The notes below the pieces were generated by a model. The model worked only from the letters and a program-made list of their open reading frames with translations, did no database searches and was not told the DNA's origin. Source: an uncultured Planctomycetaceae bacterium (GTDB lineage Bacteria > Planctomycetota > Planctomycetia > Pirellulales > UBA1268). From it: DNA of 37,769 nt. Position 1 is the stretch's first letter. Every line of letters begins with the position of its first letter. Position numbers and translations under genes: made by a program. Location: the NCBI GenBank assembly GCA_903919035.1, contig CAIXGY010000016.1:1-37769 (forward strand), given 5' to 3'. Shown here piece after piece: positions 14,881 through 30,337 of this stretch.

Positions 14881-16322
14881 AAGGTCTGCCGATCGTCTCA
14901 GCCGACGAGCCGTGCGGGGTCGGGACGTCGGCCCTGCCGGTGATCCAGCCCGTCGATCCGGCCACCTGCCGGGGCACGTTCTCGATGGTCAGCCTCGGCT
15001 GCCCCAAGAACCTCGTCGACAGCGAGCGGATGCTCGGGCTGCTGCGGGAGGACGGCTGGCAGCTCGTGGCCGAGCCGCACGGGGCGGATCTCGTGATCGT
15101 CAACACCTGTGCCTTCATCGACGCCTCGCGGCAGGAGTCGTATGGGGCCATCCGCGAGATGCTCGACCTCAAGGCGGCCGGCGCCACCCGCGGCGTGATC
15201 GTGGCAGGCTGCCTCGCCGAACGGCAGAAGGAGTCGCTCCTCGACGAGCTGCCGGGGGTGGACGCGGTGATCGGCGTCTTTTCCCGGGACGAAGTGGCCC
15301 GCGCGGCCGAGCGGCTGCTCGGCGGCCTCGGGGATCAGCGGAGCGTGTTCCGCCCGGCGCCGGCGCGGGCCCTCGACGATTCCGGTCGCATGCGGGTCAC
15401 GCCGCGGCACATGGCCTACCTCAAGATCTCGGAGGGCTGCGACCGGACCTGCACGTTCTGCGCGATCCCGCGGATGCGCGGCAAGCATGCCACGAAGCCG
15501 ATCGAGGAGGTGGTGCGCGAGGCCCGCGAACTCGCCGCGGACGGCGTCAAGGAGCTCGTGATCGTCGCGCAGGACACGACCTACTACGGGCTCGATCTCT
15601 ATGGCGAGACACGGCTCGTGGAATTGCTCGGCGAGCTGGAGCGGGTGGACGGGATCGAGTGGATCCGGCTCATGTACCTCTATCCGATCCACTTCACCGA
15701 CCGCCTCGTCGCCACGATCGCCGGGAGCGGCAAGATCCTGCCCTACCTCGACATGCCCTTGCAGCACGCCAGCGATCCGGTGCTCAAGCGGATGCAGCGG
15801 CGGGTCAACCGGGCCGCCACCGAGGAGTTGCTGGGAAAGCTCCGCGAGCGGATCCCCGACCTCGTGCTCCGCACCACGTTCATCACGGGGTTTCCGGGGG
15901 AGACCGACCCGCAGTTCGCGGAGTTGGTCGACTTCGTCCGCCGGTGGCGGTTCGAGCGGGTGGGAGTGTTTACCTATTCGCTGGAGCCCGACACGCCCGC
16001 GGCGCGGCTCGACGGCCATCTGCCCGAGGACGTGAAGACGGCCCGACGCGACGAACTCATGCGGGTGCAGCAGGGCATCGCCCACGACCACGCCCGGCGA
16101 CAGGTGGGCCGCACGCTCGACGTGATCGTCGATCGGCGCAGCGACGAGCGGCCCGACGTGTGGATCGCCCGCACCAAGGCCGACGCGCCCGACATCGACT
16201 GCGTGGCCTGGATCACCGCGCCGGGCAGCGAGCATGGCCGGCCGCTCACGGGCCGCATCCTGCCGGTCGAGGTGGTCGCCGCCTCGGGCTATGACCTGGC
16301 CGCGGTGTCCGCCGAGGCCTGA
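14877..16322 (+). CDS. rimO: Ribosomal protein uS12 methylthiotransferase
   Basis: RimO attaches a methylthio group to an aspartate of ribosomal protein S12. The 481-aa protein has the UPF0004 domain with its three cluster cysteines (SLGCPKN C42, VNTCAF C78, VAGCLAE C112), the radical SAM motif CDRTCTFC within [18 protein letters not shown], and a C-terminal TRAM domain. The signature [39 protein letters not shown] distinguishes RimO from MiaB. ATG 14877 overlaps the ispG stop; a 36-residue N-terminal extension before the first conserved strand is slightly longer than usual. Confidence 0.95.
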
Positions 16323-16325
16323 CGC

Positions 16326-16919
16326 ATGGCCACCGATCGCGTGCTCACCGTGCCCAACGTACTGTCGCTCGCGCGGCTGGGCCTGGCGGTCGTGTTCTTC
16401 GCGGCGGTCGAGCGGCCGGAGCCGGTCGCCGCGTTCTGGCTGTTTCTCGTGGCGGCGTCCACCGACTGGGTCGATGGCTGGTGGGCGCGGCGGTTCGGCC
16501 AGGTGAGCCGGCTGGGACGGATCTTCGATCCGCTCGTCGACAAGGTGCTCGTGTGCGGCGCCTGGGTGCTGCTCGCCGCCCGCGACGGCGGGTCGGCGAT
16601 CCTGCCCTGGATGGCCCTGGTGGTCGTCGTCCGCGAACTCGTGGTGACGGCCGTCCGCGCGGAGATGGAACGGATCGGCCGCGACTTCTCCGCCGCGCTC
16701 GTCGGAAAATTGAAGATGGTGTTGCAGTGTGCGGCCGTGGCCCTCGAGTTGGCGGCGCGTGCCTGGCCGGGCTGGCAGCCTGGCGGCGTCGATCCGCGGC
16801 TGGCCGCGACGTGGACGGCTTGGGCGGCCGTCGTGGCCACGGTCTGGTCGGGCGTCGAGTATCTCGTCGCCGCACGGGTGCTCGTCGCCCGCGGCGCGGG
16901 CTCGCCGCCCGGGGAATGA
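16326..16919 (+). CDS. pgsA: CDP-alcohol phosphatidyltransferase (PgsA-like)
   Basis: An integral membrane enzyme of 197 aa, most likely making phosphatidylglycerophosphate from CDP-diacylglycerol and glycerol-3-phosphate. The full family motif DxxDGxxARx8GxxxDxxxD is present without change: DWVDGWWAR through GRIFDPLVD, residues 47-72. The start TVPNVLSLARLGL is typical of PgsA. It starts 3 bp after rimO and its stop overlaps the CPBP gene start, so it is part of the same operon. A different alcohol acceptor cannot be excluded. Confidence 0.9.
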   Translation: MATDRVLTVPNVLSLARLGLAVVFFAAVERPEPVAAFWLFLVAASTDWVDGWWARRFGQVSRLGRIFDPLVDKVLVCGAWVLLAARDGGSAILPWMALVVVVRELVVTAVRAEMERIGRDFSAALVGKLKMVLQCAAVALELAARAWPGWQPGGVDPRLAATWTAWAAVVATVWSGVEYLVAARVLVARGAGSPPGE

Positions 16920-17779
16920 GCGGGGCGGCAGACATGCAGACGGGTGAAGCGGTCGGCGTCGGCGGGGTGGATCCGACACTGACCGTGCCGCTGATCGCTG
17001 CGATGCTCGTGGCCTGGACGGCGAGTATCGTCGTGGCCGCGCGGCTCGCGGTCCGGCTGCGGCGCGGACTCCCGATGGTCGATCCACGGCCGCATCCGCC
17101 GGTGACCTGGGGCGGAGCCGACGTGGCGGCAGTCGCGGCGATGTTCATCGGTCTGCTCATGGCGGCGGGCTGGTGGGTGCGGCCGGAATCCGCCTTGCGT
17201 CTCCAACTTGCCGCGGACGTGATCACGAAACTTGGCGCCACGCTCGCGGGCCTGGCTGTGCTGCGAATGGCCGGCGCTTCGTGGGCCGCCCTCGGCTTCG
17301 GTGGAGAACGTGTCGTTGACGATCTGCGGATCGCCGTCGGCGGGCTGGCGCTCGTGCTGGCGCCGCTGCTCGGCATCGCGGCCATCCTCGACCGGATCGT
17401 GCCGTATCGCCATCCGGTCGTGACGTTTCTCCAGACCGAGCGGGATCCGGTCGCCATCGGGCTCGTCGTGCTTGCGGCCGTTTGCGTGGCGCCGGTGGCC
17501 GAGGAGTTTTTCTTTCGCAGGGTGCTGCAGGGCTGGCTCGAGTGCCGCCTGCCCGAGGCCGACGGCGCCGTCGCGATCGGGCTCTCCGCGGCGGCCTTCG
17601 CCGCGGCCCACGCCGGGCATGGCCTGGCGGCCGGGCCGCTGTTCCTGCTCGGGGTGGTGCTCGGGGTCGTGGCCAGACGCACCGGGTCACTCGGGGCCTG
17701 CATCGGACTGCACGCGCTGTTCAATGCCGTGAGCGTGGGGCTGATCCTGGCCTCACCGCCTGGCCAGGGCGGGGCATGA
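16916..17779 (+). CDS. CPBP-family intramembrane metalloprotease
   Basis: A 287-aa multipass membrane protein with the CPBP (CAAX protease / bacteriocin-processing, Abi) domain at its C-terminus. Motifs: EEFFFRR (E196, E197, R201), FAAAHAGHG, and HALFNAVS. These supply the glutamates and histidines of the active site. The first 150 residues contain at least three further helices. ATG 16916 overlaps the pgsA stop (ATGA). The family cleaves prenylated or secreted peptides in some bacteria, but the substrate here is unknown. Confidence 0.85.
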   Translation: MSGAADMQTGEAVGVGGVDPTLTVPLIAAMLVAWTASIVVAARLAVRLRRGLPMVDPRPHPPVTWGGADVAAVAAMFIGLLMAAGWWVRPESALRLQLAADVITKLGATLAGLAVLRMAGASWAALGFGGERVVDDLRIAVGGLALVLAPLLGIAAILDRIVPYRHPVVTFLQTERDPVAIGLVVLAAVCVAPVAEEFFFRRVLQGWLECRLPEADGAVAIGLSAAAFAAAHAGHGLAAGPLFLLGVVLGVVARRTGSLGACIGLHALFNAVSVGLILASPPGQGGA

Positions 17780-17852
17780 GGGCTCGGGGCCCGGAATCGA
17801 TCTTGGCCGCGATGCGGCGGACGCGGCACAATCCCGGGCTCACCCATCTCGG

Positions 17853-18803
17853 ATGGTCGTGTCTCCCGTGTCGCGTCGCCCTCTCACCACCCGCCTTGCC
17901 GACGTGGCCGCCTACGTGGCGGTGCGGGTGGTGATCTGCGTGCTTCAGGCCCTGCCGCGCGGCACGTGCGAACGGTGGGCCCGGCGACTCTCGGGCCTGT
18001 TCGCCGATCGGCTGGCCATCCGTCGGGACGTGGTGCTCGGCAATCTCGGGATCGCATTTCCCGACGCCACCCTCGAGACGCGGCAGGCACTCTCTCGGGG
18101 CATGTGGGAGCACCTGCTGCTGATGGTCGTGGAGATCGCCCATGCCGACCGCGTGATCCGCACGACGACGTGGCGACGCTATCTGCGGATTCAGGGGATG
18201 GAGGAGGCCGTTCGGACACTCTGGCTCGAGCGGCCGAAGGTCATCCTCTCGGGTCACTACGGCAACTTCGAGATCGCGGCCTACCTGTTCGGATTGTTCG
18301 GCTTCCGCACCTTCTCGGTGGCCCGCGAACTCGACAATCCCCTGCTCGACAACTTCGTGACCCGGTTTCGCGAGTCGCGGGGCCAGGTGATCCTGCCGAA
18401 GATCGGCAGCGCGCCCGACGTGGCGCAGGTGCTGGATGCGAACGGCACGATCGGCCTGCTCGGCGACCAGGCGGCCGGCCCCCGGGATTGCCGGGTCGAG
18501 TTTTTCGGCCGGCCGGTGACGGTGCACAAGGCGATCGGCCTGTTCGCGCTCTCGGCCTGCGCACCGGTAATCGTCTGTTCGGCGACCCGACGCGGCGGGC
18601 TGTTCGCCTACGACCTGCGGGTCGAAGGCACCATCGATCCCGCCGCCGGTGGACCCGAGGTTGAGAATCCCCGTGCCCTCTCGCAGTGGTACACGGGACT
18701 CCTCGAACGGGCGATTCGACGGGAGCCGAGGCAATACTGGTGGCTCCATCGCCGGTGGCGGGAGGGGCGTCGACCGGCTACAGTGGGCCGCTCCGCCGCA
18801 TGA
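17853..18803 (+). CDS. LpxL/LpxM-type lysophospholipid acyltransferase
   Basis: A 316-aa inner-membrane acyltransferase of the lipid A late acyltransferase (HtrB) family. An N-terminal hydrophobic segment (VAAYVAVRVVICVLQAL) is followed by a pattern VLGNLGIAFPDATLETRQ and the catalytic HxxxxE motif SGHYGNFE (H135, E140). GLLGDQAAGPRDCRVEFFGRPVTVHKAIGLFAL and QYWWLHRRWR are also typical. The presence of such an enzyme supports a lipid A-like outer membrane. It is separated from the CPBP gene by 73 bp. Whether it acts on lipid A or on another glycolipid cannot be told. Confidence 0.88.
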   Translation: MVVSPVSRRPLTTRLADVAAYVAVRVVICVLQALPRGTCERWARRLSGLFADRLAIRRDVVLGNLGIAFPDATLETRQALSRGMWEHLLLMVVEIAHADRVIRTTTWRRYLRIQGMEEAVRTLWLERPKVILSGHYGNFEIAAYLFGLFGFRTFSVARELDNPLLDNFVTRFRESRGQVILPKIGSAPDVAQVLDANGTIGLLGDQAAGPRDCRVEFFGRPVTVHKAIGLFALSACAPVIVCSATRRGGLFAYDLRVEGTIDPAAGGPEVENPRALSQWYTGLLERAIRREPRQYWWLHRRWREGRRPATVGRSAA

Positions 18804-18861
18804 CCGGCACGAGGCGTCGTGCCGGCCCCGCGCTGCCGCCCGCCTCCGCCGCCAGGTCGCC

Positions 18862-19191
18862 ATGTCTGAGTGGATTCCGATCGCCACGGAGGCGGAGTGT
18901 CCCCCGGGCACCTGCATCGAGCGGGTGGCCGAGGATCGCGTGGTGGCGATCGCCAACGTCGCCGGCCGCTATCACGCTCTCGACGGCCTCTGCCCGCACC
19001 AGGGCGGGCCGCTCGGGCGGGGCACGCTCCAGGGCACGACGCTCACCTGCCCGTGGCACGGCTGGCAGTTCGACGCGACCACCGGCCGCCACTGCCTGTC
19101 GGCGACGGTGCGGCAAGCCATCCACGAGATCCGCACGGACGCCGGCATGATTCTCGTGCGCTTCGGTGAGGTCGCCGGAACCGCGACATGA
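18862..19191 (+). CDS. Rieske [2Fe-2S] ferredoxin-like protein
   Basis: A 109-aa soluble Rieske domain, similar to the small subunit NirD and to ferredoxin components of ring-hydroxylating dioxygenases. The cluster ligands are C44-P-H46 in CPHQGG and C63-P-W-H66 in CPWHGWQF. The start ATG 18862 gives the usual short N-terminal strand (MSEWIPIATEAECPPGTC). Its stop overlaps the next gene's ATG, so the two are coupled. No reductase or oxygenase partner lies in the window, so it may serve as a free electron carrier. Confidence 0.9.
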   Translation: MSEWIPIATEAECPPGTCIERVAEDRVVAIANVAGRYHALDGLCPHQGGPLGRGTLQGTTLTCPWHGWQFDATTGRHCLSATVRQAIHEIRTDAGMILVRFGEVAGTAT

Positions 19192-20153
19192 TCACGTTTC
19201 GCTGCTTCCGCAACGACGATCCCCCGCGACTCGCCGGCATCTGGCGAACCGCGAATCTCGGGCCGGGGGCGATGCAGCCGATGACCGTGACGCATCTCGA
19301 GGCCGGCGTCTTCTCGAAGCCCTACTTCGACCGCGAGGGGCTCATGCTGGCCTTCGACGACGATCAGGCCGTGGGCTTCGCCCACGCGGCCTTCGCGCCG
19401 AACACCGACCGCGACGCGCTGGACACGTCGACCGGCACCACGCTGCTCGTCGTGGTCGAGCCCCACGAGCACGAGGCCGACATCGCCGCTGGCCTGATCT
19501 CCCGCTGCGAGGACTACCTCCGACGCCGCGGCGCGCGGACGATCCTCGGCGGCGGCTCGGCCGAGATGGCGGGTTTCTACCTCGGGCTCTATGGCGGCGC
19601 GCTCATTCCGGGCATCCTCGATTCATCGGCCGCGATGCAGCGGGCCTTTCTCGCCTCGGGCTACGAGGCCGCCGACCGGATCGCCGTGCTCCGTCGGCCA
19701 CTCGCGGGATTCCGGCCCCCCGTCAACCGACTCCAACTGGCCATCCGGCGTGCGAGCGAGCTCCGGGTGATCGACGAGCCGGTCCGCCGCACGTGGTGGG
19801 AGGCTGCGACCACCACGGGAATCGCGCTGCGGCGCTATGAACTCCGCGGGCGGCAGGAGGGGCCGGAAGGGACTGGGGCCCTCCTCGGGAGCGCGTCGTT
19901 CTGGGACATGCAGCCGCTCGCGTCGGCGTGGGGAGTGCCGGCGGCCGGTCTGATGAACGTGACCATCGAGGGCCCGCGGCGCCGCCAGGGGCTGGCGAGC
20001 TACCTCGTCGCCGAGGCGTTGCATGACCTCGCCGCGGAGGGCGTGACGCTCGTGGAGACGCAGGTGTCGGAGGCCAACGCCGCGGCCACGAGCCTGTTCG
20101 GCAAGCTGGGTTTCCAGGCCGCCGACCACGGCACCGTGTTTCGCAAGCCGTAA
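19188..20153 (+). CDS. GNAT-family N-acetyltransferase (two domains)
   Basis: A 321-aa protein with two GNAT folds in tandem. The N-terminal one (residues 1 to about 170) has a poor acetyl-CoA site. The second has a recognisable motif A (MNVTIEGPRRRQGLASYLVAEALHDLAAEG) and a final strand motif (ATSLFGKLGFQ), so it is the likely catalytic domain. ATG 19188 overlaps the Rieske stop codon. Substrate unknown. It is the last gene of the plus-strand run before the convergent DUF1570 gene. Confidence 0.82.
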   Translation: MITFRCFRNDDPPRLAGIWRTANLGPGAMQPMTVTHLEAGVFSKPYFDREGLMLAFDDDQAVGFAHAAFAPNTDRDALDTSTGTTLLVVVEPHEHEADIAAGLISRCEDYLRRRGARTILGGGSAEMAGFYLGLYGGALIPGILDSSAAMQRAFLASGYEAADRIAVLRRPLAGFRPPVNRLQLAIRRASELRVIDEPVRRTWWEAATTTGIALRRYELRGRQEGPEGTGALLGSASFWDMQPLASAWGVPAAGLMNVTIEGPRRRQGLASYLVAEALHDLAAEGVTLVETQVSEANAAATSLFGKLGFQAADHGTVFRKP

Positions 20154-20158
20154 TACGA

Positions 20159-21034
20159 TCAGGGCTGGCCCGCGGCGGCGAGCGAGGACAGGTGCGTCGT
20201 GAGCGTGGCCGCGAGGTCCGGCGGGGTGTCGGGGGCGCGCATGAGTCGCGCCGAGAGCGGCGGGGTCTTGCCGTCGCGGCGGACGTCGGCCAGGTAATCC
20301 TGCAGCAGCCGGCGACGCTCCGGCGTCGTGCACAGGAGCCAGTGCACCCAGCACCAGGCCTCGGCATAGTGATCCTGCGAAAGTTCTCCGGCGGAGGCGA
20401 GCGACTCGAGCCTCGCGAGATCGGGCCGCCACGTGCCCTCCAGCGTCCGGCCGGCGAGATGGGCGACGTGGGCCCGATGCACGCCGGCCTCGTGCCGCGG
20501 CAGTTCGAAGAACTCGGCGAGCCCCTCGTCGAGCCAGAGCGGCACGGCGGGCGCGACCGAGTGGACGTAGCCGTGGGTCGTCTCGTGCCGCAGGTCCTCG
20601 GCGACCCGGTCCTGCCAGGCGGCGAACACGGCGAGCGTGGTGTCGGTCTCGACGAAGAAGGCCCGCCGAGCCGGAAAGCCGGGGAACTGTCGCGCGGCGA
20701 AGGCGGTGTAGCGATCCGCGTCTTCGAAGAGATACAGATGCACCGGCTCGTCGGAGACCGGCAGGCCAAGCCGCTGGCTGACTTCCGCACGGAGGTCGTC
20801 GAGCTCGCGCACGAGGCGGTGCTGGCCCGCGAGTGGAAAATCCGCGTGGATGACCAGTTGCCCGACCGCGAGTTCCGTCCGGTCAGGCAGCGAGCGGTCC
20901 CTCGTCCACGAGCCGAGGCCGATGGCGGGCGCGGACGAGCGGGCGAGCGCGTCGAGGCCGACCACATGGGCGCATCCGGTGGCCACCAGCACTCCGAGTG
21001 CGCAGACGATCGATGAAACGACGGCGGGCCGCAT
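20159..21034 (-). CDS. DUF1570-type lipoprotein, gluzincin-like peptidase
   Basis: A 291-aa lipoprotein. The signal sequence ends in a lipobox VATGC (Cys21), so it is anchored to a membrane outside the cytoplasm. The centre carries a metallopeptidase signature: HETTH (150-154) followed 16 residues later by WLDEGLAEFF, whose glutamate would be the third zinc ligand. YLFEDADRYTAF before it is typical of DUF1570, a family prominent in planctomycetes. The catalytic set looks complete, but no activity is established for this branch. It faces the GNAT gene convergently with a 5-bp gap. Confidence 0.8.
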   Translation of the reverse strand: MRPAVVSSIVCALGVLVATGCAHVVGLDALARSSAPAIGLGSWTRDRSLPDRTELAVGQLVIHADFPLAGQHRLVRELDDLRAEVSQRLGLPVSDEPVHLYLFEDADRYTAFAARQFPGFPARRAFFVETDTTLAVFAAWQDRVAEDLRHETTHGYVHSVAPAVPLWLDEGLAEFFELPRHEAGVHRAHVAHLAGRTLEGTWRPDLARLESLASAGELSQDHYAEAWCWVHWLLCTTPERRRLLQDYLADVRRDGKTPPLSARLMRAPDTPPDLAATLTTHLSSLAAAGQP

Positions 21035-21076
21035 GGCGCACTCCGACCCGCGCCGGCCAGGCCCGGGGGCGGGATG

Positions 21077-21922
21077 CTAGTGGGACCGGCCTGGTGGGCC
21101 AAGGCCGGTCGGGCGGTCTGCACCGAGAGCACCGGCGAGCGACTCCGGTGCGATCGGCCTGCCGATGACCGCGGCGGCACCCGCACGCAGTGCCGCCAGA
21201 GCGGTGTCGGATCGGGGAAACGAGTCGATCACCACGATGCGGAGTCCCGGACGGTTGGCCGTCAGCAGGCCGAGCCAGGCGAGTTGCGAGGAGTCGAGCG
21301 TGCCCGCGTCCCACACGAGCACGTCGGCGGGCTCGTCGAGCGGCGGGCGTCCGCAGGAGCGCCGCACGACCTCATGCCCCGCCGCGGCCAGAAGGTCGGC
21401 CAGGCCGTCGAGATCGAGTGGCCGCTGCGCCGCCACGGACAGGCGGATTCCGGCGGGGCCGGCCGGAGCCAGGGCGGCCACCGCCTCCAGCATCCGATCC
21501 TCTCGCCGCGCGGTCGCGGGGAGGCCGGGCGTGCCGGGCCGATCCGCGGCCCGTACCGCGAGCCACGTCGCCAACCTCGCCGGCAGTTCGCTCCAGGGCA
21601 CCTCCTCCGTCGCCGGCAGTGCCGGTCCGCTGCGGCGTCGTCCCTCGACGAGACTCGTCGCCACGGACACGAGCGGCGCGAGCGGCCAGCGGCGGGCCAG
21701 GGTCGTGAGGTCGGCGAGCTGCCAGCAGGCGGAGGCGTCGCTGCCGAGCAGCACGAATGCCGGCCAGAACGGCATCGGCTCTGCCGCGTCGACGTCGGGA
21801 ACGTCGCGGACATCCACGAGTTCGGCGACGGCAGCGCGGGCCCACTCCAACTCAGGACCGTGGGCGGCGCCAACCCAGGCGACCGCGGGCCGCGAATCGG
21901 ATGCTGCATGATTGGGCGTCAT
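21077..21922 (-). CDS. Receiver-like protein of unknown function
   Basis: A 281-aa protein. Its C-terminal part (GIRLSVAAQRPLDLDGLADLLAAAGHEV through ALAALRAGAAAVIGRPIAPESLAGAL) follows the alternating strand-helix order of a response-regulator receiver, with a lone aspartate in VLVWDAGTL where the phosphoacceptor would be and no lysine before the last proline (IGRPI in place of the usual TKP). The N-terminal 130 residues may be a second, more degenerate copy. No output domain follows. It is probably a divergent or pseudo-receiver. It lies just upstream of the DUF1570 gene on the same strand, 42 bp apart. Confidence 0.45.
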   Translation of the reverse strand: MTPNHAASDSRPAVAWVGAAHGPELEWARAAVAELVDVRDVPDVDAAEPMPFWPAFVLLGSDASACWQLADLTTLARRWPLAPLVSVATSLVEGRRRSGPALPATEEVPWSELPARLATWLAVRAADRPGTPGLPATARREDRMLEAVAALAPAGPAGIRLSVAAQRPLDLDGLADLLAAAGHEVVRRSCGRPPLDEPADVLVWDAGTLDSSQLAWLGLLTANRPGLRIVVIDSFPRSDTALAALRAGAAAVIGRPIAPESLAGALGADRPTGLGPPGRSH

Positions 21923-22134
21923 CGATGGTCACGGTAGCGGGAGTGCGGCAAGCGCGGCAAGGCAGGAGAGGTGCGGGGTCGCGGCCGTCGGGTGGGCTCG
22001 AATCCGCCATTGACCCCATGGGACGGGGGCTGACAATGCCGGCTCGTCGCGGTCATGGATGTCCGCGACGCACGCGATGGAAACCGGGTGAGCGCCGCCA
22101 CGGGGCGGACCGCCCGCAACGGCAGGAGGCCGCC

Positions 22135-23313
22135 ATGTCGGAATCGGGCACGCGAGCGCGGCGTGGAGTGGGACGCCGCATGCAGGTGATCGCCGTCACG
22201 GGCACCAGCGGCAAGACGACGACGACGTGGCTCGCCGCGTCGGTGTTGGCCGAGGCCGGCCTGCGAGCGGGCGTGGTGAGCGACCTGGGTTGCGTCGATG
22301 CCGATGGGACGTTCGTGGGCCACTTCGACCGTCGAAGCCCGGACGCGCTCGCCGCGCGGCTCGCGGCGTTCGCCCGCAGCGGATGCACGCACGCCGTCGT
22401 CGAGATGCCGCACACGCTCCTGGAGGCCGGCGCGGTGGGTCGCGGGACGTGCGGCACCGTCGTCGTCACCAGCGCCGTTCGCGGGCCGCGCGGCGAACGG
22501 TCCGCCCGCCGCCGCATCGAGCGGCGGATCGTCGAGGCGTTGGCGTCCGACGGCTGCCTGGTGGCTCCGCGCGACCCGCGTTTCGCCCCACTGTTTGCGG
22601 CCGCGGCCCGCCGCCGCGGCGTGACCGGCCTTGCGGTCGGCCTCGACGATTCATGCGACGTGTGGGCACAGCCCGTCGAGCGCGGCCTGCATGGCCAGGT
22701 CTTCCTCGCCGCGGCCGCCGGACAGGTCGTGCCGATGGCGGTCGACGTGCCGGTGGCGTCGTTCGCCCGCAACGCGATGTGCGCCGCCGCCGTGGGACTT
22801 CGTTGCGGCGTGCCGCTCGACGTCGCCGCGCGGGGCGTGGAGGCGTGCGGCAGTGTGGCCGGCCGCGTGGAGCGGCTGGATCGCGGGCAGGACTTCGCGG
22901 CCTTTCTCGATGCGCCGGGAAGCGGCCATGCGCTCGCGTCGACCCTCGTGAGCCTCCGGCGGCTCACGCCCGGGCGGCTCGCGGTGATCGCCGACCAGCG
23001 ATTCGTGGACGGCCTCGGAGCGATCGCGTTCGCGCGGCCCGTGCGGCAGCGTTGCGACGACGTGGTCGTCGTGCCGGCGGGCGTGCTCGATGACGAGGCC
23101 GACGAGGCGGCGCTGGCGGCCTACGCCCGCATCGACCTGCTCTTGGGGCGGCTCGGGGCCCGCGACTGCCTGCTCGTGCTCGGACACACCGATCCGGTGC
23201 CTCGGCCGCGACAGTCTGGCGGCGACGTGCCCCTGGCGACGCTCGTGGATGGCTGGCTCCGGCTGGCCCATCCGCCACGGGTCGCCGCGGCGGGTCCGCG
23301 CCGGGCGGCATGA
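22135..23313 (+). CDS. Truncated, MurE-like Mur ligase family protein
   Basis: A 392-aa protein with a strong ribosome site (AGGAGG, 5 bases before ATG 22135). The ATP-binding loop is intact (VTGTSGKTTTTWL, 21-33), and GSVAGRVERLD corresponds to the start of the MurE C-terminal domain. However, the UDP-binding N-terminal domain of MurE is missing, the conserved SSH motif is replaced by EMPHTLL, the DHLDYH region and carbamylated-lysine area are unrecognisable (RSARRRIERRIVEAL), the YAHTP motif reads DAPGSGHAL, and the DNPR motif is absent. It is therefore unlikely to be the housekeeping ligase. MurB-like and FtsQ-like genes follow directly. Confidence 0.7.
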   Translation: MSESGTRARRGVGRRMQVIAVTGTSGKTTTTWLAASVLAEAGLRAGVVSDLGCVDADGTFVGHFDRRSPDALAARLAAFARSGCTHAVVEMPHTLLEAGAVGRGTCGTVVVTSAVRGPRGERSARRRIERRIVEALASDGCLVAPRDPRFAPLFAAAARRRGVTGLAVGLDDSCDVWAQPVERGLHGQVFLAAAAGQVVPMAVDVPVASFARNAMCAAAVGLRCGVPLDVAARGVEACGSVAGRVERLDRGQDFAAFLDAPGSGHALASTLVSLRRLTPGRLAVIADQRFVDGLGAIAFARPVRQRCDDVVVVPAGVLDDEADEAALAAYARIDLLLGRLGARDCLLVLGHTDPVPRPRQSGGDVPLATLVDGWLRLAHPPRVAAAGPRRAA

Positions 23314-23425
23314 GGACCGTTCCGCGGGTCCGCCATGGACGTCCACGCCGCCGGTGGGCCACAATCCTGTCCGGTGTCGCCGATGCGGTTCGGCGGCCGA
23401 GGTTTTCGGTACGAGGGTCACGGCG

Positions 23426-24352
23426 ATGGCGGCGGCAGGCAAATCGGCGGCGGATCCGGCCGCCGGGGCGGACGCGACGCCCTTCGATGATCTCGGCGTG
23501 GCCGTGTCGCGGCGCGAACCGCTGTCGCACCACACCTGGCTCGGGCTGGGCGGCGAGGCTTCGTTCTTTTGCGAGCCGGTCGATGTCGAGGCGCTGCGGC
23601 GGGTAGTCAGCCGCTGCCGAGAGCGGGGCATCCCGCTGCGGGTGATCGGCGGTGGCTCCAACGTGCTGGTGCCGAAGGCAGGCTTCGCCGGCATGGTGGT
23701 GCGGCTGTCGGCGCCCGCCTTCTGCGGGATCGAGGTGCGAAAGCCGGGGCTCGTGGCCGGTGCCGGCGCGAAACTCGTGCACGTGGTCTCGGCGGCCGTT
23801 CAGGCTGGGCTCTCGGGGCTCGAGACGCTCGTGGACGTGCCGGGCACCGTCGGCGGCGCGCTCGTCGGCAACGCGGGCGGGCATGCGGGCGACATCGGCG
23901 AGCGGGTCCGCGAGGTGACCGTGATGCTGGTCGACGGCAGCGTCGAGAACCGCGACCAGTCACGGCTGGCGTTCGAGGCCCGGTGGAGCAACCTCGACGA
24001 CTGCATCGTGATCAGTTGCCGATTCGATCTCGACGAGGAGAGCCCGGCCCTGCTCACGAAGCGGATGCAGAAGCAGTGGATCGTGGGCCGCGCCGAGCAA
24101 CCCGGGGGCACGCGGGCCGTGGCGATGATGTTCAAGGATCCGCTCGGCACCACGGCCGAATCGCTCATCGTCCAGGCTGGGGCCCGCGACACGCGGGTCG
24201 GCGGCGCGTCGGTGCATGCCCCCCACGCGAATTACGTCGTGGCGGATGCCACGTGCACGAGCGACGACGTGCGGGCACTCGTGGAGCGGGTGCGGACGCG
24301 GGTTCGTGACGCCCTCGGCGTGGAACTGACCCCGCAAATCGAGGTCTGGTGA
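23426..24352 (+). CDS. MurB-like FAD protein with altered active site
   Basis: A 308-aa protein of the UDP-N-acetylenolpyruvoylglucosamine reductase family. FAD-binding segments are well kept: VIGGGSNVLVPKAGF (73-87), GLETLVDVPGTVGGALVGNAGG (131-152). The RxS pair is present (ARWS, R186). The catalytic serine/cysteine segment, normally GSxFKNP, reads AMMFKDP, placing Met234 at the proton-donor position, and the C-terminal LEPEV-type segment reads LTPQI (Gln304). Both key acid/proton residues thus look lost. It still ends normally (HANYVVADATCTSDDVRALVERVRTRV). It lies between a degenerate Mur ligase and an FtsQ-like gene. Confidence 0.8.
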   Translation: MAAAGKSAADPAAGADATPFDDLGVAVSRREPLSHHTWLGLGGEASFFCEPVDVEALRRVVSRCRERGIPLRVIGGGSNVLVPKAGFAGMVVRLSAPAFCGIEVRKPGLVAGAGAKLVHVVSAAVQAGLSGLETLVDVPGTVGGALVGNAGGHAGDIGERVREVTVMLVDGSVENRDQSRLAFEARWSNLDDCIVISCRFDLDEESPALLTKRMQKQWIVGRAEQPGGTRAVAMMFKDPLGTTAESLIVQAGARDTRVGGASVHAPHANYVVADATCTSDDVRALVERVRTRVRDALGVELTPQIEVW

Positions 24353-24371
24353 GCCGCCCGGCCGCTCTGCG

Positions 24372-25262
24372 ATGAACGCTCCCCTCCGTCGCCGGCCTCC
24401 CGTCCCCGAGCCACCGCGTGCATCGGCGGTGATGGAGTTCCTGTCTACCCGCCGCGCCGGTCTGGGCGCGATCGCGGTGATCGTGGCGGCCGGACTCGGC
24501 GGCTGGGCGTTGTGGCGTCGCCATGCCGCCGACGTGCGGGCCCATCCGGATGCGGTGCTGTTTCCGGAGCGGGTGGATGTTCGCGGCGTGGCGCCGTGGG
24601 TCCGCGGCGACCTTCGCGCCGAGGTGCTCCGCGACGCGAGCCTCGACGGCGGCCTGCCGCTCGACGACCCCGACCTCGCCGAGCGGCTGCGGCGGGCGTT
24701 CGCGAGGCATCCGTGGGTCCGCGAGGTCGCGCGGGTGGCGATCAGCCAGCCGGCAGCCGCCGTCGTGGAGGTGCGCTGCCGGCAGCCGGTGGCGATGGTG
24801 CGGGTTCAGAACGGCCTCTACGCCGTGGACGCAGACGCCGTGCTGCTCCCCAGCGACGACTTCACGCCCGAGTCGGCGGCCGCCTATCCGACGATCGCCC
24901 ACGTCGGGTCCACGCCGCTGGGGGCGGCCGGCACGCGATGGGACGACCAACTCGTGGTCGAGGGGGCGGCCGTGGCGGCGGCGATCGGCCCCGAGTGGCC
25001 GCGGTTGGGAATGCGGGATCTGCGCCCCGCGGGCACTCCCACCGGCATCCACTGGGATCTCGTGGGCGACGACGGCAGCATGATCCGCTTCGGCTCGGCG
25101 CCCGGTCGCGAACGGCCCGACGAGCCGGCCGCCGCGGCGAAGGTGGTGCGACTCCGGGACGTCGCCGGCGGCGATGCGGCCGGGTCGGTCGACCTCGCGG
25201 CACCGCCACCGGCCGAGAACACGCCGCCGATCAGCGCGGGCGATCCAGCACCAGCGTCCTGA
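24372..25262 (+). CDS. FtsQ-like POTRA membrane protein
   Basis: A 296-aa bitopic protein: a proline/arginine-rich cytoplasmic N-terminus, one membrane segment (GLGAIAVIVAAGLGGWALW, about 30-48), then an extracytoplasmic POTRA-like domain (ERVDVRGVAPWVRGDLRAEVL ... LRRAFARHPWVREVARVAISQPAAAVVEVRCRQPVAMVRV) and a beta domain starting GLYAVDADAVLLP. This order and the HPWV phrase fit FtsQ/DivIB. The C-terminal 50 residues are low-complexity. The gene starts 20 bp after the MurB-like gene, as in dcw clusters. Its 3' end overlaps the convergent hydrolase gene by 32 bp. Confidence 0.75.
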   Translation: MNAPLRRRPPVPEPPRASAVMEFLSTRRAGLGAIAVIVAAGLGGWALWRRHAADVRAHPDAVLFPERVDVRGVAPWVRGDLRAEVLRDASLDGGLPLDDPDLAERLRRAFARHPWVREVARVAISQPAAAVVEVRCRQPVAMVRVQNGLYAVDADAVLLPSDDFTPESAAAYPTIAHVGSTPLGAAGTRWDDQLVVEGAAVAAAIGPEWPRLGMRDLRPAGTPTGIHWDLVGDDGSMIRFGSAPGRERPDEPAAAAKVVRLRDVAGGDAAGSVDLAAPPPAENTPPISAGDPAPAS

Positions 25263-25776
25263 CCTCCCGAAAGTTCGGGTGTTCAGCCGACCGGCACCAT
25301 TCGAACAGCACGGCCTCGCTCGTGGTGAGCACGGCCCCTGCGCCCTCCAGACGGCGCAGGGCGACATCGTGATCGAGCGAGTGTCGCGAGGCCACGGCAT
25401 CGACCGCCACGAACACGGCCAGGCCGCGACCGAGCAGGTCGAGCGCGGTTTGTGCGACACAGACATGGGTTTCGAGTCCCGCGAGCACGACGCTCGTCAC
25501 GTCGGGCCCGACCGCGGCCTCGAAGGCCGCGCTGCCGCAACAGCTGAACGTCATCTTGGGGATGGCGGACGGCAGGCGGGAGGCGAGCGTGGCCGGCGTG
25601 GGGCCGAGGCCCTGGGGATATTGCTCGGTGAGCACGCGGCTGACGCCGAGGATGGCGGCGGCCTCGGCGAGCCGGAGGGACCGGGCGACGACGCGTTCCG
25701 CGTCGGGCATCGCGGCCAGCAGCCGCTCCTGGACGTCGATCACCGCGAGGAGGGACGAGGCGGGTGTGAGTTGCAT
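25231..25776 (-). CDS. Isochorismatase-family cysteine hydrolase
   Basis: A 181-aa protein with the family's catalytic triad: Asp14 (AVIDVQERL), Lys74 (IPKMTFS) and Cys106 (LETHVCVAQTALDLL). The length and the AGLETHVCV phrase fit the YcaC/nicotinamidase-like group that hydrolyses small amides. Nicotinamidase-specific metal ligands are not evident, so the substrate is open. Start MQLTPASSLLAVIDVQ at 25776 is chosen because the upstream ORF part is repeat sequence. Confidence 0.88.
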   Translation of the reverse strand: MQLTPASSLLAVIDVQERLLAAMPDAERVVARSLRLAEAAAILGVSRVLTEQYPQGLGPTPATLASRLPSAIPKMTFSCCGSAAFEAAVGPDVTSVVLAGLETHVCVAQTALDLLGRGLAVFVAVDAVASRHSLDHDVALRRLEGAGAVLTTSEAVLFEWCRSAEHPNFREVRTLVLDRPR

Positions 25777-26127
25777 CCGCGTAGCATACGTGAAACGCTG
25801 GCCAGGGCCGGGGGAATCCCGATGCCGCGGCCCGCATGACGGTCGCCTTGTCGTCGCGCCGCGAGAGGCATCTCGTTTGCCAACGGACGTCGCGCCCAAC
25901 CGGCTCGGGACTGCCCACGCCCTCTCGCGGGACGTTCGCCTCGGCCATCCAAGGCCTCGGTGCTCTGCATGTCCGCTGCGCTCCGGCATCGATGCCTGCG
26001 CTGGCTTCCATAGCCCCGCTCGTGGGGATGGGCAGACCCGATCCTTTCTCGCTCGTGTCGGGCAAGGTGCCCTCAGTGCCGGGACAGTCGCGGTGACCGA
26101 TGAGGATCGAGCGCGGGCCGACTGAGG
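25777..26127. other. Intergenic region of about 350 bp with repeat copy B
   Basis: No credible gene is seen between the hydrolase start and the tsaE stop. The listed ORFs here are low-quality. The region holds the degraded repeat described at 25891-25940 and further GC-rich sequence without a clear promoter or terminator. Confidence 0.6.
25891..25940 (+). repeat. Dispersed intergenic repeat, copy B (degraded)
   Basis: cgcgcccaaccggctcgg and tgcccacgccctctcgcg followed by ggacgttcgcc align with copies A and C (cgcccaaccggc and tgcccgtgccgtctcgcgcggacgttcgcga), with four substitutions before a final mismatch and one missing base in the core. The similarity to copy A continues loosely to the shared gctgcgctc further right. 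It is read on the plus strand, opposite to the flanking genes. Confidence 0.6.
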
Positions 26128-26604
26128 TCAGGAACGAGACGCCGCGAGAGACTCGATCGCGCGAGCGTGGGCCAGGCCGCGGGACGTGAACGAAAACGCC
26201 CGCGCTGTCGGGCTCGTGATCGCGATCACCACGTCGAGCCGATCGGCCGGCAGCGCCGCCAACGCCCGCTCCGGCCACTCCACGAACGTCCACGTGGCGG
26301 CGGCCACGGCATCGTCCCAGCCGGTCTCGTGCAGGTCGGCGGCATCGGTGAGGCGGTAGAGGTCGGCATGCACGAGTCGGCCCCGCGGCCCATCGTGGAC
26401 GTGAATCAGGCCGAACGTGGGACTCACGACCTCGACGGGATCGATGCCGGCCGCGGCCGCGACGGCCTTCACGAACGTGGTCTTGCCGGCGCCGAGATCG
26501 CCCGACAGCGCGACGAACGCGCCGGCGGGCAGGGCGGCCACGACCGCCGCCGCGAGCGGGGCGAGCGCGGCCTCGTCGGGCACGTCGATGACCACCGTCG
26601 GCAT
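26128..26604 (-). CDS. tsaE: tRNA threonylcarbamoyladenosine ATPase TsaE
   Basis: TsaE is the ATPase that drives the TsaB-TsaD-TsaE complex making t6A37 in ANN-decoding tRNAs. The 158-aa protein has the Walker A loop SGDLGAGKTTFVKAV (34-48), the SPTFGLIHVHDG switch and the LVHADLYRLTDAADLHETGWDDA segment ending in FVEWPER. The ATG at 26604 begins MPTVVIDVPDEA and lies 5 bp after the thiL stop, so thiL and tsaE form an operon. Length is normal. Confidence 0.94.
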   Translation of the reverse strand: MPTVVIDVPDEAALAPLAAAVVAALPAGAFVALSGDLGAGKTTFVKAVAAAAGIDPVEVVSPTFGLIHVHDGPRGRLVHADLYRLTDAADLHETGWDDAVAAATWTFVEWPERALAALPADRLDVVIAITSPTARAFSFTSRGLAHARAIESLAASRS

Positions 26605-26609
26605 GCGTC

Positions 26610-27542
26610 CTACCCGTCGAAGGCGTGGATGAAGCCCCGCGGCTCCAGCGGCCGCGTCGTGCCGTCTGCAGCGCGGGCCAGCAGCCCGGAGCCAGCCTGG
26701 ACCACACCGAAGATCGCCGGGGCGAGGCCCGGGGGCGGATCGGCGACGAGGGCGCGGGCGTCGGCCGGCGGCATCGCGAGCACGAGCTCGAAGTCCTCGC
26801 CGTCGGCCAGCGTGTGGTCGAGCGGGCTGCGTCGGTCGTCGGAGCGGGCGGCGAGCCGTTCCGCGTCGGGATGGATCGGCACGGCGGCGAGATCGACGAC
26901 CGCCGCGGCGCCGCTGGCGGCCATCATCCGCGACAGATCGAGCGACAGGCCGTCGCTCACGTCGATCGCCGCGTGGACGGTGTGGCGGGCGGCGATCGCC
27001 AGCGCCTCGCGGCAGCGGGGAGCCACGGCGAGGTGGCGTCCGAGAATGCTGCCGCCGCACGGGCCCGTGACGACGAGCAGATCGTCGGGCCGGGCCCCGT
27101 CGCGACGCCAGGCAACGCCCGCCGCGACGCTGCCGACCGCGGTGATGGTCACCACCAGCGGGCCGTCCCACGCGTTCGTGTCGCCGCCGGCGAGCGTCAC
27201 GCCATGGTCCGCCGCCAGTGCGGCGATGCCCTCGTGGAGGCCGCGGGCGATCGCATCGCCGCCATGCCGAGGAAGCGCCACGGCCACCACGATCGCCTCG
27301 GGCCGGGCGGCCATGGCCGCCAGGTCGCTCAAGTTGACCGCGAGCGCCTTGTGGCCCACGGCCTGCGGCGGACAGTCGGGGCCGAGCACGAAGTCGACGC
27401 CCTCCATGAGCATGTCCGTCGTGACGACGGTGCGACGGCCCGCCGGGGGTCGCAGGACGGCGGCGTCGTCACCGGGGGGCACCTCGAGCCGCACGTCGGC
27501 CGGAATCCGCCGCAGGAGCCAGTCGACGAATTCAGTTTCCAT
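26610..27542 (-). CDS. thiL: Thiamine-monophosphate kinase
   Basis: ThiL phosphorylates thiamine monophosphate to the diphosphate coenzyme. The 310-aa protein shows the N-terminal PPGDDAAVL, the metal-binding TTDMLMEGVDF, HKALAVNLSDLAAMAARP, GGDTN, the central VTGPCGGSILGRHL, and AIDVSDGLSLDLSRM with a late LADGEDFELVLAM. All are in the usual order and spacing. It is transcribed towards tsaE. The upstream HtrA-type gene ends 66 bp before it. Confidence 0.95.
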   Translation of the reverse strand: METEFVDWLLRRIPADVRLEVPPGDDAAVLRPPAGRRTVVTTDMLMEGVDFVLGPDCPPQAVGHKALAVNLSDLAAMAARPEAIVVAVALPRHGGDAIARGLHEGIAALAADHGVTLAGGDTNAWDGPLVVTITAVGSVAAGVAWRRDGARPDDLLVVTGPCGGSILGRHLAVAPRCREALAIAARHTVHAAIDVSDGLSLDLSRMMAASGAAAVVDLAAVPIHPDAERLAARSDDRRSPLDHTLADGEDFELVLAMPPADARALVADPPPGLAPAIFGVVQAGSGLLARAADGTTRPLEPRGFIHAFDG

Positions 27543-27608
27543 CGCGCTGCCCGCGAAGATCGGGCACCCGACCGCCCGCTGCGGGATCGACGCCCGCTGG
27601 TGGCCATC

Positions 27609-28913
27609 CTACCGCAGGACGGAGTCGGAGACGATGTGGCCGAAGAGCGTCTCGCGGCCGCGGAGCACGTAGAACTTGATCGGATTGAGGTGATCTTCGC
27701 CGGCCTTGTCGAGGATGTATGCCACGTTGTCGGGGGCGATCGTCTCCCACACGTGGAGGCCGACGAGGATGTCGCCCGCGCGGATGCCCTGCTCTGCGGC
27801 AGGCCCGCCGTCCCGCACCTCCGTCACGTCGAGCCCGCCGCGGTAGCGGGCCTGCAGCTTCTGCACCTTGGCCGCGGGCAGCGGCTGCAGTCGCACGCCG
27901 AGTTCCTGCCAGCACCGCTCCTCGATCGACATGTCGGAGCGGCGCATGGCCGCCAACGGCAGCGTCAGGCTCTCCTCGGCCCCGGCCCGCACCACCGTCA
28001 TCGAGATCGCGTCGCCGGCCTTGTGGCCGAGCAGGCCACGCTCGATGTCGAACGGCCGCGTGACCCGGACGTCACCGATCCGCGTGATCACGTCGCCGGC
28101 CCGCACGCCCACGCTCGCCGCCGGGCTCTCGCCGTGCACCGCCTCAACGACGGCGCCGGTGGCGTCGCCCCGTCGGGCCACGATGCCGTGCCAGGTGTGA
28201 TCCACCCGCTCGACGGACATGAGCCGGGTGACCACGTCCAGCACGTGGTCGATGGGCAAGGCGAAGCCGATGCCCTGCGCCCCGGCCCGCACGGCCACGT
28301 TGATGCCGATCACCTCGCCGTCGACGTTGAGCAGCGGGCCGCCGGAGTTACCGGGATTGATGCTGGCGTCGGTCTGGATCAGGTCGTCGTAGCGCTGCGT
28401 GCGGCTCACCTCGACGTCGCGGTGGAGCGCGGACACGATCCCCCGGGTCACGGTGTGCTCATACCCGTAGGCGTTGCCGAGCGCGAGGACGGTCTCTCCG
28501 ATCATGAGGTCGCTCGACGTGCCGAGCGTGATCACCGGCAGCGGCTCGGCGGTCGGAATCTTGATCACGGCCAGATCCGTGCGCGGGTCGTGCGACACGA
28601 GCGCAGCCGAGGTCGTGCGGCCGTCGGCGAGCGTGACCTCGATCCGGCGGACTCCCTCCACGACGTGGAAGTTGGTGACGACGTAGCCGCGCGGATCGAC
28701 GATGCAGCCGGTGCCCATGCCGTTGACCCGCCGTGCCTCGGCGCCGGCCTCGTCGTCGCCCACGACCTTCTGCCCGTGGATGTTGACCACGGCATCGCGC
28801 TGCGACTCGACCGCGAGAACGATGGCCGAGCGCCGCATCTCGGTGGCCGAGGCGGGAGCGGTCGCGGCGGCGCAGACGGCCACGAGCGACACGACAACCG
28901 ACGAAATCCGCAT
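27609..28913 (-). CDS. HtrA/Deg-type serine protease with two PDZ domains
   Basis: A secreted or periplasmic quality-control protease of 434 aa. A signal peptide (residues 1-23, MRISSVVVSLVAVCAAATAPASA) is followed by a trypsin-like domain with the triad His83 (TNFHVV), Asp113 (RTDLAV) and Ser190 (NPGNSGGPL). Two PDZ domains follow (around 250-335 and 345-430), which would bind substrate C-termini. ATG 28913 is selected because the longer ORF lacks a signal sequence. A paralogue with a membrane anchor lies at 31664. Probably co-transcribed with thiL and tsaE. Confidence 0.9.
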   Translation of the reverse strand: MRISSVVVSLVAVCAAATAPASATEMRRSAIVLAVESQRDAVVNIHGQKVVGDDEAGAEARRVNGMGTGCIVDPRGYVVTNFHVVEGVRRIEVTLADGRTTSAALVSHDPRTDLAVIKIPTAEPLPVITLGTSSDLMIGETVLALGNAYGYEHTVTRGIVSALHRDVEVSRTQRYDDLIQTDASINPGNSGGPLLNVDGEVIGINVAVRAGAQGIGFALPIDHVLDVVTRLMSVERVDHTWHGIVARRGDATGAVVEAVHGESPAASVGVRAGDVITRIGDVRVTRPFDIERGLLGHKAGDAISMTVVRAGAEESLTLPLAAMRRSDMSIEERCWQELGVRLQPLPAAKVQKLQARYRGGLDVTEVRDGGPAAEQGIRAGDILVGLHVWETIAPDNVAYILDKAGEDHLNPIKFYVLRGRETLFGHIVSDSVLR

Positions 28914-29110
28914 GGCGGACTGGCTCCCCCGGCGATGACCGGACCGACGGCGCTCCGCGGCCCTGGCTCGGGAGGGAAATCGGCCACCACCCCCGGGCCG
29001 GCCGCACGAGCGGCCTTTGCGTCGGCACATCCTGCCCAAACTCAAGCCCGCAGCCTGCGGAATCGGTGCGTGTGCCCCCGTCGCCGCGGGTTCGCCGGCT
29101 TCCGCTGGAA

Positions 29111-30337
29111 TCAGCCGGGGCCGGGCCGATCGGACCGTGCCTCCCGGGGCTCGGATCCCACGAGCGCGGGCAGCACCTGAAGCCCGAGAAACAAGACCAG
29201 GACCACGAGCACGAGCACCGGCCAGGCGTTGGCGATGGCCGTGCCGAACTCCCAGCCGATTTCCCGCGAGATTCCGGCCACGAGCGTGGCCACGACGACG
29301 AGAAGCAGCGCGAGGAGCACGAGACCGCATCCCAGCGACGCCATCGTGCCCTTGAAGGTGCCGAGTTCCGAAAACTCCTCGTGGTGCAGGTCGATCGCGC
29401 GGCCCCGCGCCAGGCTGCGGGGCACCGTTTCGGCGATCTCCAGGGCGCGGGCGGCGTCGGGCCAGACCGCCGGCGGCACGGCCGACGAGTCCGGCCGCGG
29501 GCGTTCCCCGAGCACGCATTCCAGGTGGTCGAGCAACGCGGCGCCGCGGTCGAACGGCGTAGGCTCCGCGAGAGGTGGCGTCGTCGTCCACGGCACCGGT
29601 TCCTCTGGAGCAAAGACCTCGATCGGCCCACGGGCGTGATGCAGCGTGATCCGCAATCCCTCGGGCCGACCGGCCGCCACCTGCCAGCGGGCCGGCACCT
29701 GGGCGGGGCCGGTGAGCCCGACGGCGAGCGTGGGCCATGCCGAGTCGGGGTCGCCGGCGCCGAGCGTGGCCACGCGGCCCGGATCACCGACCAGCACGCG
29801 GATGATGTCCGCGTCACGGGAGAGCGCCGCGAGCACGGCCTGCTTTGAGCGATCTGCGAGCGTCCGCTCCAGTCGGATGGATTCGAGCGGCCCGAGCGGT
29901 CCGGAGCCGGCGGCGGCGGCCTCGACCAGGCCCTTCAGGGCGGCGATCGTCGGATGCAGGCGATCGGGCAGGGCGGGCACGAGCCGCGCACCGGAGTCGC
30001 GGGCGATCATGTCGAGCTCGAACGCCCAGACCATCGAGAACTCGAGCGGCTGCGCGAGCACGAGCGGGCGACCCGACTGCACGAGCGTGCGGACGGCCTC
30101 GGCCCGGGCCGCATCCCAGCCGTCCGAGCCGACGAGCACGGCATCGCACACGGCGTCGTCCAGGAAGGACGTCCACGCCACGCGACCGGCCGACGGCACG
30201 GTCGTCGCATGGGCGGCGAGGATCGTCCATCCGCGGTCGCGGGCGGCAGCGGCGATCCGGGCAATCAGGGGGTCGTCGCCGAGCAGGCCGAGCGTTTTCG
30301 TGGAGCGGGTGGACATCCGGACCATTGTTCCCGCCAT
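29111..30337 (-). CDS. Gfo/Idh/MocA-like protein with C-terminal membrane helices
   Basis: A protein of up to 408 aa (alternative starts ATG 30325 and 30316). The N-terminal 130 residues follow the Rossmann pattern of Gfo/Idh/MocA oxidoreductases (LGLLGDDPLIARIAAAARDRGWTI; AVRTLVQSGRPLVLAQPLEFSMVWAFELDMIARDSGARLVPALPDRLHPTIAAL). The EKP motif with the catalytic lysine reads AQP, and the dinucleotide glycine motif is poor, so dehydrogenase activity is doubtful. Two hydrophobic helices near the C-terminus (GCGLVLLALLLVVVATLVAG and AWPVLVLVVLVLFLGLQVLPALV) anchor it in the membrane. Function unknown. Confidence 0.6.
   Translation of the reverse strand: MAGTMVRMSTRSTKTLGLLGDDPLIARIAAAARDRGWTILAAHATTVPSAGRVAWTSFLDDAVCDAVLVGSDGWDAARAEAVRTLVQSGRPLVLAQPLEFSMVWAFELDMIARDSGARLVPALPDRLHPTIAALKGLVEAAAAGSGPLGPLESIRLERTLADRSKQAVLAALSRDADIIRVLVGDPGRVATLGAGDPDSAWPTLAVGLTGPAQVPARWQVAAGRPEGLRITLHHARGPIEVFAPEEPVPWTTTPPLAEPTPFDRGAALLDHLECVLGERPRPDSSAVPPAVWPDAARALEIAETVPRSLARGRAIDLHHEEFSELGTFKGTMASLGCGLVLLALLLVVVATLVAGISREIGWEFGTAIANAWPVLVLVVLVLFLGLQVLPALVGSEPREARSDRPGPG

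Follow-up and report, generated by a model that had tools for sequence, protein, structure and literature searches.

The window, that is, the whole stretch of DNA analysed here (37,769 nucleotides from an uncultured bacterium of the order Pirellulales), contains three co-directional genes that encode, in this order, a Mur ligase homologue, a MurB homologue and a divergent FtsQ (Table 1). A preliminary description, made from the sequence alone, had reported these genes in a row, and this observation was confirmed for all three; it had also noted long reading frames with a strong ribosome site, and indeed the frames are open and an AGGAGG motif accompanies the ligase gene.

Table 1 Features of the ligase-MurB-FtsQ locus (positions in the window).
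Feature	Position	Strand	Evidence
Ribosome-binding site (AGGAGG) for the ligase	22124..22129	+	Sequence; comparison with relatives
Remnant (392 aa) of a MurE-type ligase, reduced to the middle and C-terminal domains	22135..23313	+	Pfam PF08245; MurE models; AlphaFold/Foldseek
Junction of internal in-frame deletion that removed the N-terminal (UDP-binding) domain, between codons 12 and 13	22170..22171	+	Alignment to full-length relatives
P-loop TGTSGKTTT	22198..22224	+	GTSGK kept in 33/33 family members
MurB-like protein, 308 aa, FAD-binding fold (probable start, ATG 23426)	23426..24352	+	FAD_binding_4, MurB_C; AlphaFold
Codon of Met234, E. coli Ser229 proton-donor position	24125..24127	+	Alignments
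Codon of Gln304, E. coli Glu325 position	24335..24337	+	Alignments
Divergent FtsQ, 296 aa	24372..25262	+	Weak NCBIfam FtsQ match; homology to gene after murC-murB-ddl

When the ligase was searched against Pfam, the Mur ligase middle domain alone was matched (45 bits), and among the NCBIfam models those of MurE scored best; an AlphaFold model (pLDDT 89) gave Foldseek matches to MurE and to plastid PAP11. A decayed MurC, which the position of the gene would suggest, was ruled out by the MurE models, the MurE structures and the best score going to E. coli MurE. Compared with MurE, the window ligase shares the fold of the middle and C-terminal domains and an intact P-loop that fits the MurE pattern TGTxGKTT, but lacks the N-terminal UDP-binding domain, the EVSS and HLD motifs, the carbamylated lysine and DNPR (alignment to the family), and the SSH position reads PHT. 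PAP11, a plastid MurE-like protein that is part of the plastid RNA polymerase complex, has the same middle and C-terminal fold and P-loop; no sign of a link between the window ligase and RNA polymerase was seen.

The loss of the UDP-binding domain and of the SSH, DHLDYH and DNPR motifs next to an intact P-loop, as originally described, is therefore borne out for this copy, but it extends to the family only in part, the loss of the N-terminal domain, SS and HLD being confined to the window genome. The N-terminal domain is present in 32 of the 33 family copies, the relatives' ligases being full length, with EVSS and an AHLDxH-like motif; DNPR is gone in 33/33, whereas GTSGK is kept in 33/33 and the carbamylated lysine in 21/33. 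The deletion in the window removes about 95 codons between the start region and the P-loop region. The leader RQEAxM around the ribosome site, which is conserved in relatives, can still be made out, as can a start region with RRGV at its end; GRRMQVIAVTG follows directly, and upstream, no convincing displaced N-terminal domain was found among the tblastn matches listed (best E = 0.086). Conceivably, the deletion is an assembly error of this metagenome-assembled genome (MAG); however, it is accompanied by the other motif losses, which argues for a real event.

The identity of the window ligase to its relatives averages 8 points below the expectation based on MurB, the largest shortfall in the family, and relative to MurB, this is the fastest-evolving copy. 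The codon-position G+C content (80/58/88%) is nevertheless that of a coding gene, and in a pairwise codon model, ω = 1 was rejected for the window ligase pairs (dN about 0.35); because dS is saturated, only this rejection and dN are usable, and the test takes in the branch of the relative as well.

The MurB-like protein matches FAD_binding_4 and MurB_C in Pfam and scores 132 bits on TIGR00179, below the equivalog cut-off of 144.5 (NCBIfam). Its AlphaFold model has a pLDDT of 91.7, and MurB accounts for every one of the 18 best PDB matches. In fold (TM 0.85-0.89), FAD motif and overall sequence, the protein resembles MurB (TIGR00179; PDB 4pyt, 3tx1 and 1hsk), from which it differs in the loss of the proton donor and Glu325, in changed substrate-side residues and in belonging to a genome without MurA and without the downstream pathway. 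As the preliminary description had it, the proton donors are missing: the positions of E. coli Ser229 and Glu325 are occupied by Met and Gln, respectively. The same holds throughout the family, where the first of these positions is Met or Leu and the second Gln, Leu, Arg or His in 33/33 MurBs. On the substrate side, Lys217 is replaced by Arg, Asn233 by Asp and Tyr158 mostly by Ser or Ala; in the FAD motif, the SN.L part is conserved. In MurB, substitution of Ala for Ser229 nearly abolishes reduction, and PDB 1uxy, among the structure matches, is that mutant. Purifying selection on the gene is strong (ω = 0.055-0.061 for the window pairs, pairwise codon model).

The third protein reaches 22 bits on the NCBIfam FtsQ model and has no match in Pfam, the POTRA and FtsQ C-terminal domain profiles included; with these, even a wall-making relative gives no more than a POTRA match below the cut-off. 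Its gene is homologous to the one that follows murC-murB-ddl in wall-making Pirellulales, which supports its identity as FtsQ. These wall-making relatives carry murC before murB, at the place where the window carries the MurE-type ligase. Thus, of the proposed order of a dcw cluster end, the murB-ftsQ part is retained, but with a ligase of the MurE type and with murC and ddl gone, the triad does not represent the ancestral order.

In the window genome (97.5% complete, 338 contigs), profile searches detected the Mur ligase middle domain and MurB_C once each, both in the triad; no intact MurE or MurB is found elsewhere by these searches. The MurG C-terminal and PBP transpeptidase profiles had no match and SEDS (FtsW/RodA) was not found; a true MurA is absent, the only profile match (38 bits) being at the level of the second, AroA-like match of wall-makers, and so is a true MraY, with its only match below the cut-off. 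Four wall-making relatives served as internal controls, and both SEDS and MraY were detected there. The searches for MurA, MraY, MurG, SEDS and PBPs thus show a lineage without peptidoglycan synthesis genes. The suggestion that the ligase and MurB regulate wall synthesis is accordingly abandoned: as the other steps of wall synthesis have gone as well, the setting is that of a lineage that lost peptidoglycan synthesis. In most relatives of the family, Mur_ligase_M is also matched by a protein of at least about 900 aa, whose length suggests a cyanophycin synthetase-like protein, and by a FolC-like protein; both may be lost from the window genome or lie within assembly gaps.

Synteny of the triad extends to each of the 32 family genomes fetched (12 genera), mostly with the same flanking genes, and among 46 named loci of the family in public genomes, almost all carry it; its occurrence in 32 other genomes shows that it is not a chance arrangement. 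The preliminary description had proposed a comparison of synteny and selection among relatives and had held that a triad found in one genome only, under relaxed selection, would speak against repurposing; the comparison shows a triad conserved in the family, with 32 syntenic relatives and purifying selection. The flanks (window 14912-30337), named from reading the sequence, comprise genes for CAAX protease-like, lipid A-type acyltransferase, Rieske-like, GNAT, isochorismatase-like, TsaE, ThiL and HtrA-like proteins, in an order kept across the family and partly in four further genomes (G037, G041, G045 and G058). A MurE-type gene lies beside murB in the window's family and in two others (f12 and f20) and stands alone elsewhere, for example in G037; in most other families, the MurE-type ligase does not adjoin murB.

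Many of the named family records are lake MAGs, and by position, the family is perhaps the freshwater Vodnikaceae described in a study of Lake Zurich and Rimov (PMC6461901). The family triad, with MurBs 70-80% identical to that of the window, also occurs in several public records (L095, L105, L108, L113, L115, L118 and others) that bear the title Candidatus Kuenenia stuttgartiensis or Planctomicrobium piriforme; these titles are therefore probably wrong.

Across Pirellulales, MurB was found in all 189 genomes at least 95% complete, and a transpeptidase match in only 23 of them (one weak, 26 bits). To relate MurB catalytic residues to PBP status, one locus was tallied per sampled genome, excluding G057 (contaminated, two MurB copies). 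Both residues were kept in 24/24 PBP-positive genomes, whereas at least one was lost in 95/108 PBP-negative genomes, including the window's family; among the 75 PBP-negative genomes outside the family, 13 kept both residues, 19 lost one and 43 lost both. Residue retention is associated with PBP status by a statistic that ignores relatedness (Fisher p = 6 × 10−14). Mapped on the MurB tree, the state at the proton-donor position has changed no fewer than 16 times, and the presence of PBPs no fewer than 9 times; a phylogenetic independent-pairs test, underpowered with only three supported pairs, yielded none in the opposite direction. Outside the family, 13 different residues occupy the proton-donor position in PBP-negative genomes.

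MurB is likewise present in 120/120 genomes of the class. In its other orders, where MurB residues alone were compared, PBP status aside, one family (f23; loci L255-L268 within genomes G222-G302) carries Arg or Lys in place of the proton donor in 14/14 MurBs, with Glu325 kept in 13/14; a second family has lost Glu325 (4 loci), and a third, with murC, keeps both residues (2 loci).

The connection with FtsQ extends beyond the family as well. In 61 of the 75 PBP-negative loci outside it, ftsQ is the gene directly after murB, and among the same 75 loci, ddl occurs in none and murC in three. A link between MurB and the divisome that a paper on E. coli FtsE had seemed to suggest proved to concern gene silencing, not interaction.

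Part of this pattern is known. According to excerpts of two studies on dcw remnants, Pirellulales lost murA, murC, murD, murF, murG, murJ and ftsW whereas murB, as one of very few dcw genes, is conserved throughout PVC (PMC12283558), and in Planctomycetia, murB is very conserved and murE semi-conserved (PMC10632474). The wall-gene losses and the retention of murB and murE agree with ours; however, these studies count orthologues or essentiality, and the excerpts mention neither catalytic residue loss nor a MurB-FtsQ coupling in genomes that lack wall genes nor the triad, and note the retention of murB without explaining it. In the main texts of the open-licence PMC papers searched, there was no description of the recurrent catalytic death of MurB, of its coupling to FtsQ or of the family triad. 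Sugar and peptide components of peptidoglycan were reported in selected planctomycetes, Rhodopirellula baltica being among those assayed, and all planctomycetes analysed were said to harbour essential peptidoglycan genes (PMC4432640); the present results bear on this universal claim, given that most of the Pirellulales genomes tested lack PBPs.

A MurB that has lost its catalytic residues where the wall genes are gone, and that still lies next to ftsQ, makes it possible to put the puzzling retention of murB as a claim open to test, namely, that the protein fulfils a second, non-enzymatic function, probably together with FtsQ, which is relevant to how planctomycetes divide without FtsZ. The results suggest that at least MurB has such a second job outside wall synthesis. 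The most likely explanation, which we hold with moderate confidence, is that MurB has been retained as an FAD-binding pseudoenzyme linked to FtsQ, while its MurE partner drifts. The triad would then consist of wall and division genes that outlasted the loss of peptidoglycan synthesis. To judge from their sequences, the MurB and MurE forms of this group of lake bacteria, which has lost the peptidoglycan synthesis genes, should no longer be capable of catalysis. The MurB-like protein would have ceased to reduce UDP-GlcNAc-enolpyruvate and may bind FAD without turnover; as a pseudoenzyme of this kind, it could be a sensor or scaffold that, together with membrane-anchored FtsQ, takes part in division or growth of the envelope in cells with neither FtsZ nor a wall. 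The MurE-like protein would be a secondary neighbour in the family, with the ATP P-loop kept and the DNPR substrate motif lost; in the window, where the N-terminal domain is lost as well, it would do no more than bind nucleotide as a partner and may be in the course of being lost. The role of this partner is the least certain part of the explanation because the gene is still decaying in the window genome. Thus, the earlier interpretation is partly supported: repurposing is a strong case for MurB, coupled to ftsQ across the order, but a weaker one for the ligase.

Against a pseudoenzyme tied to FtsQ, it can be held that murB and ftsQ are neighbours by inheritance from the dcw cluster, which does not have to imply a shared function, that 13 PBP-negative genomes keep both catalytic residues, and that, according to an excerpt of PMC10632474, the wall-making planctomycete P. 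limnophila can dispense with either murB or ftsQ. A bolder formulation, which we put forward tentatively, is that in planctomycete lineages without peptidoglycan, MurB turned many times in parallel into a non-catalytic, FAD-binding FtsQ partner needed for division without FtsZ or a wall, joined in the freshwater family by a MurE-derived, ATP-binding recruit.

Alternatively, the MurB-like protein could still be an enzyme, an FAD oxidoreductase whose substrate or reaction has changed; it might, for instance, act on a different UDP-sugar that goes into lipopolysaccharide or a surface glycan, and the relatives' full-length MurE-like protein would work in the same new pathway. We consider this rather unlikely. 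In its favour, the FAD motif is kept while the substrate-side residues changed uniformly in the family, the P-loop persists in 33/33 ligases and the carbamylated lysine in 21/33, and a lipid A-type acyltransferase is close by in the conserved neighbourhood; against it, the 13 residues at the proton-donor position outside the family look more like loss of function than like a new active site, and the window ligase has neither the N-terminal domain nor the carbamylated lysine.

Slow neutral decay, with both genes as leftovers awaiting deletion, appears less probable still. The presence of MurB in every near-complete Pirellulales genome after the other dcw genes have gone, its ω far below 1, the rejection of ω = 1 for the ligase and the codon-position composition of the window ligase all speak against it, even though that ligase, with its in-frame deletion and motif losses, is the most accelerated copy of the family and the MurB catalytic residues were lost many times.

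That the lineage still makes a modified peptidoglycan in which these proteins take part is very improbable, considering that profiles able to find MurA, MraY, SEDS and PBPs in control genomes and wall-making relatives show all four to be missing here, that the excerpted published profiling (PMC12283558) agrees on murA, murC, murD, murF, murG, murJ and ftsW, and that the MurB proton donor is gone, notwithstanding the peptidoglycan components reported in selected planctomycetes (PMC4432640) and the strong MurG matches that persist in three genomes without any PBP (G037, G040 and G041). These MurG-type matches score 77-115 bits, and in G037 (locus L070), the MurG-type gene adjoins the lone MurE-like gene, which has altered motifs.
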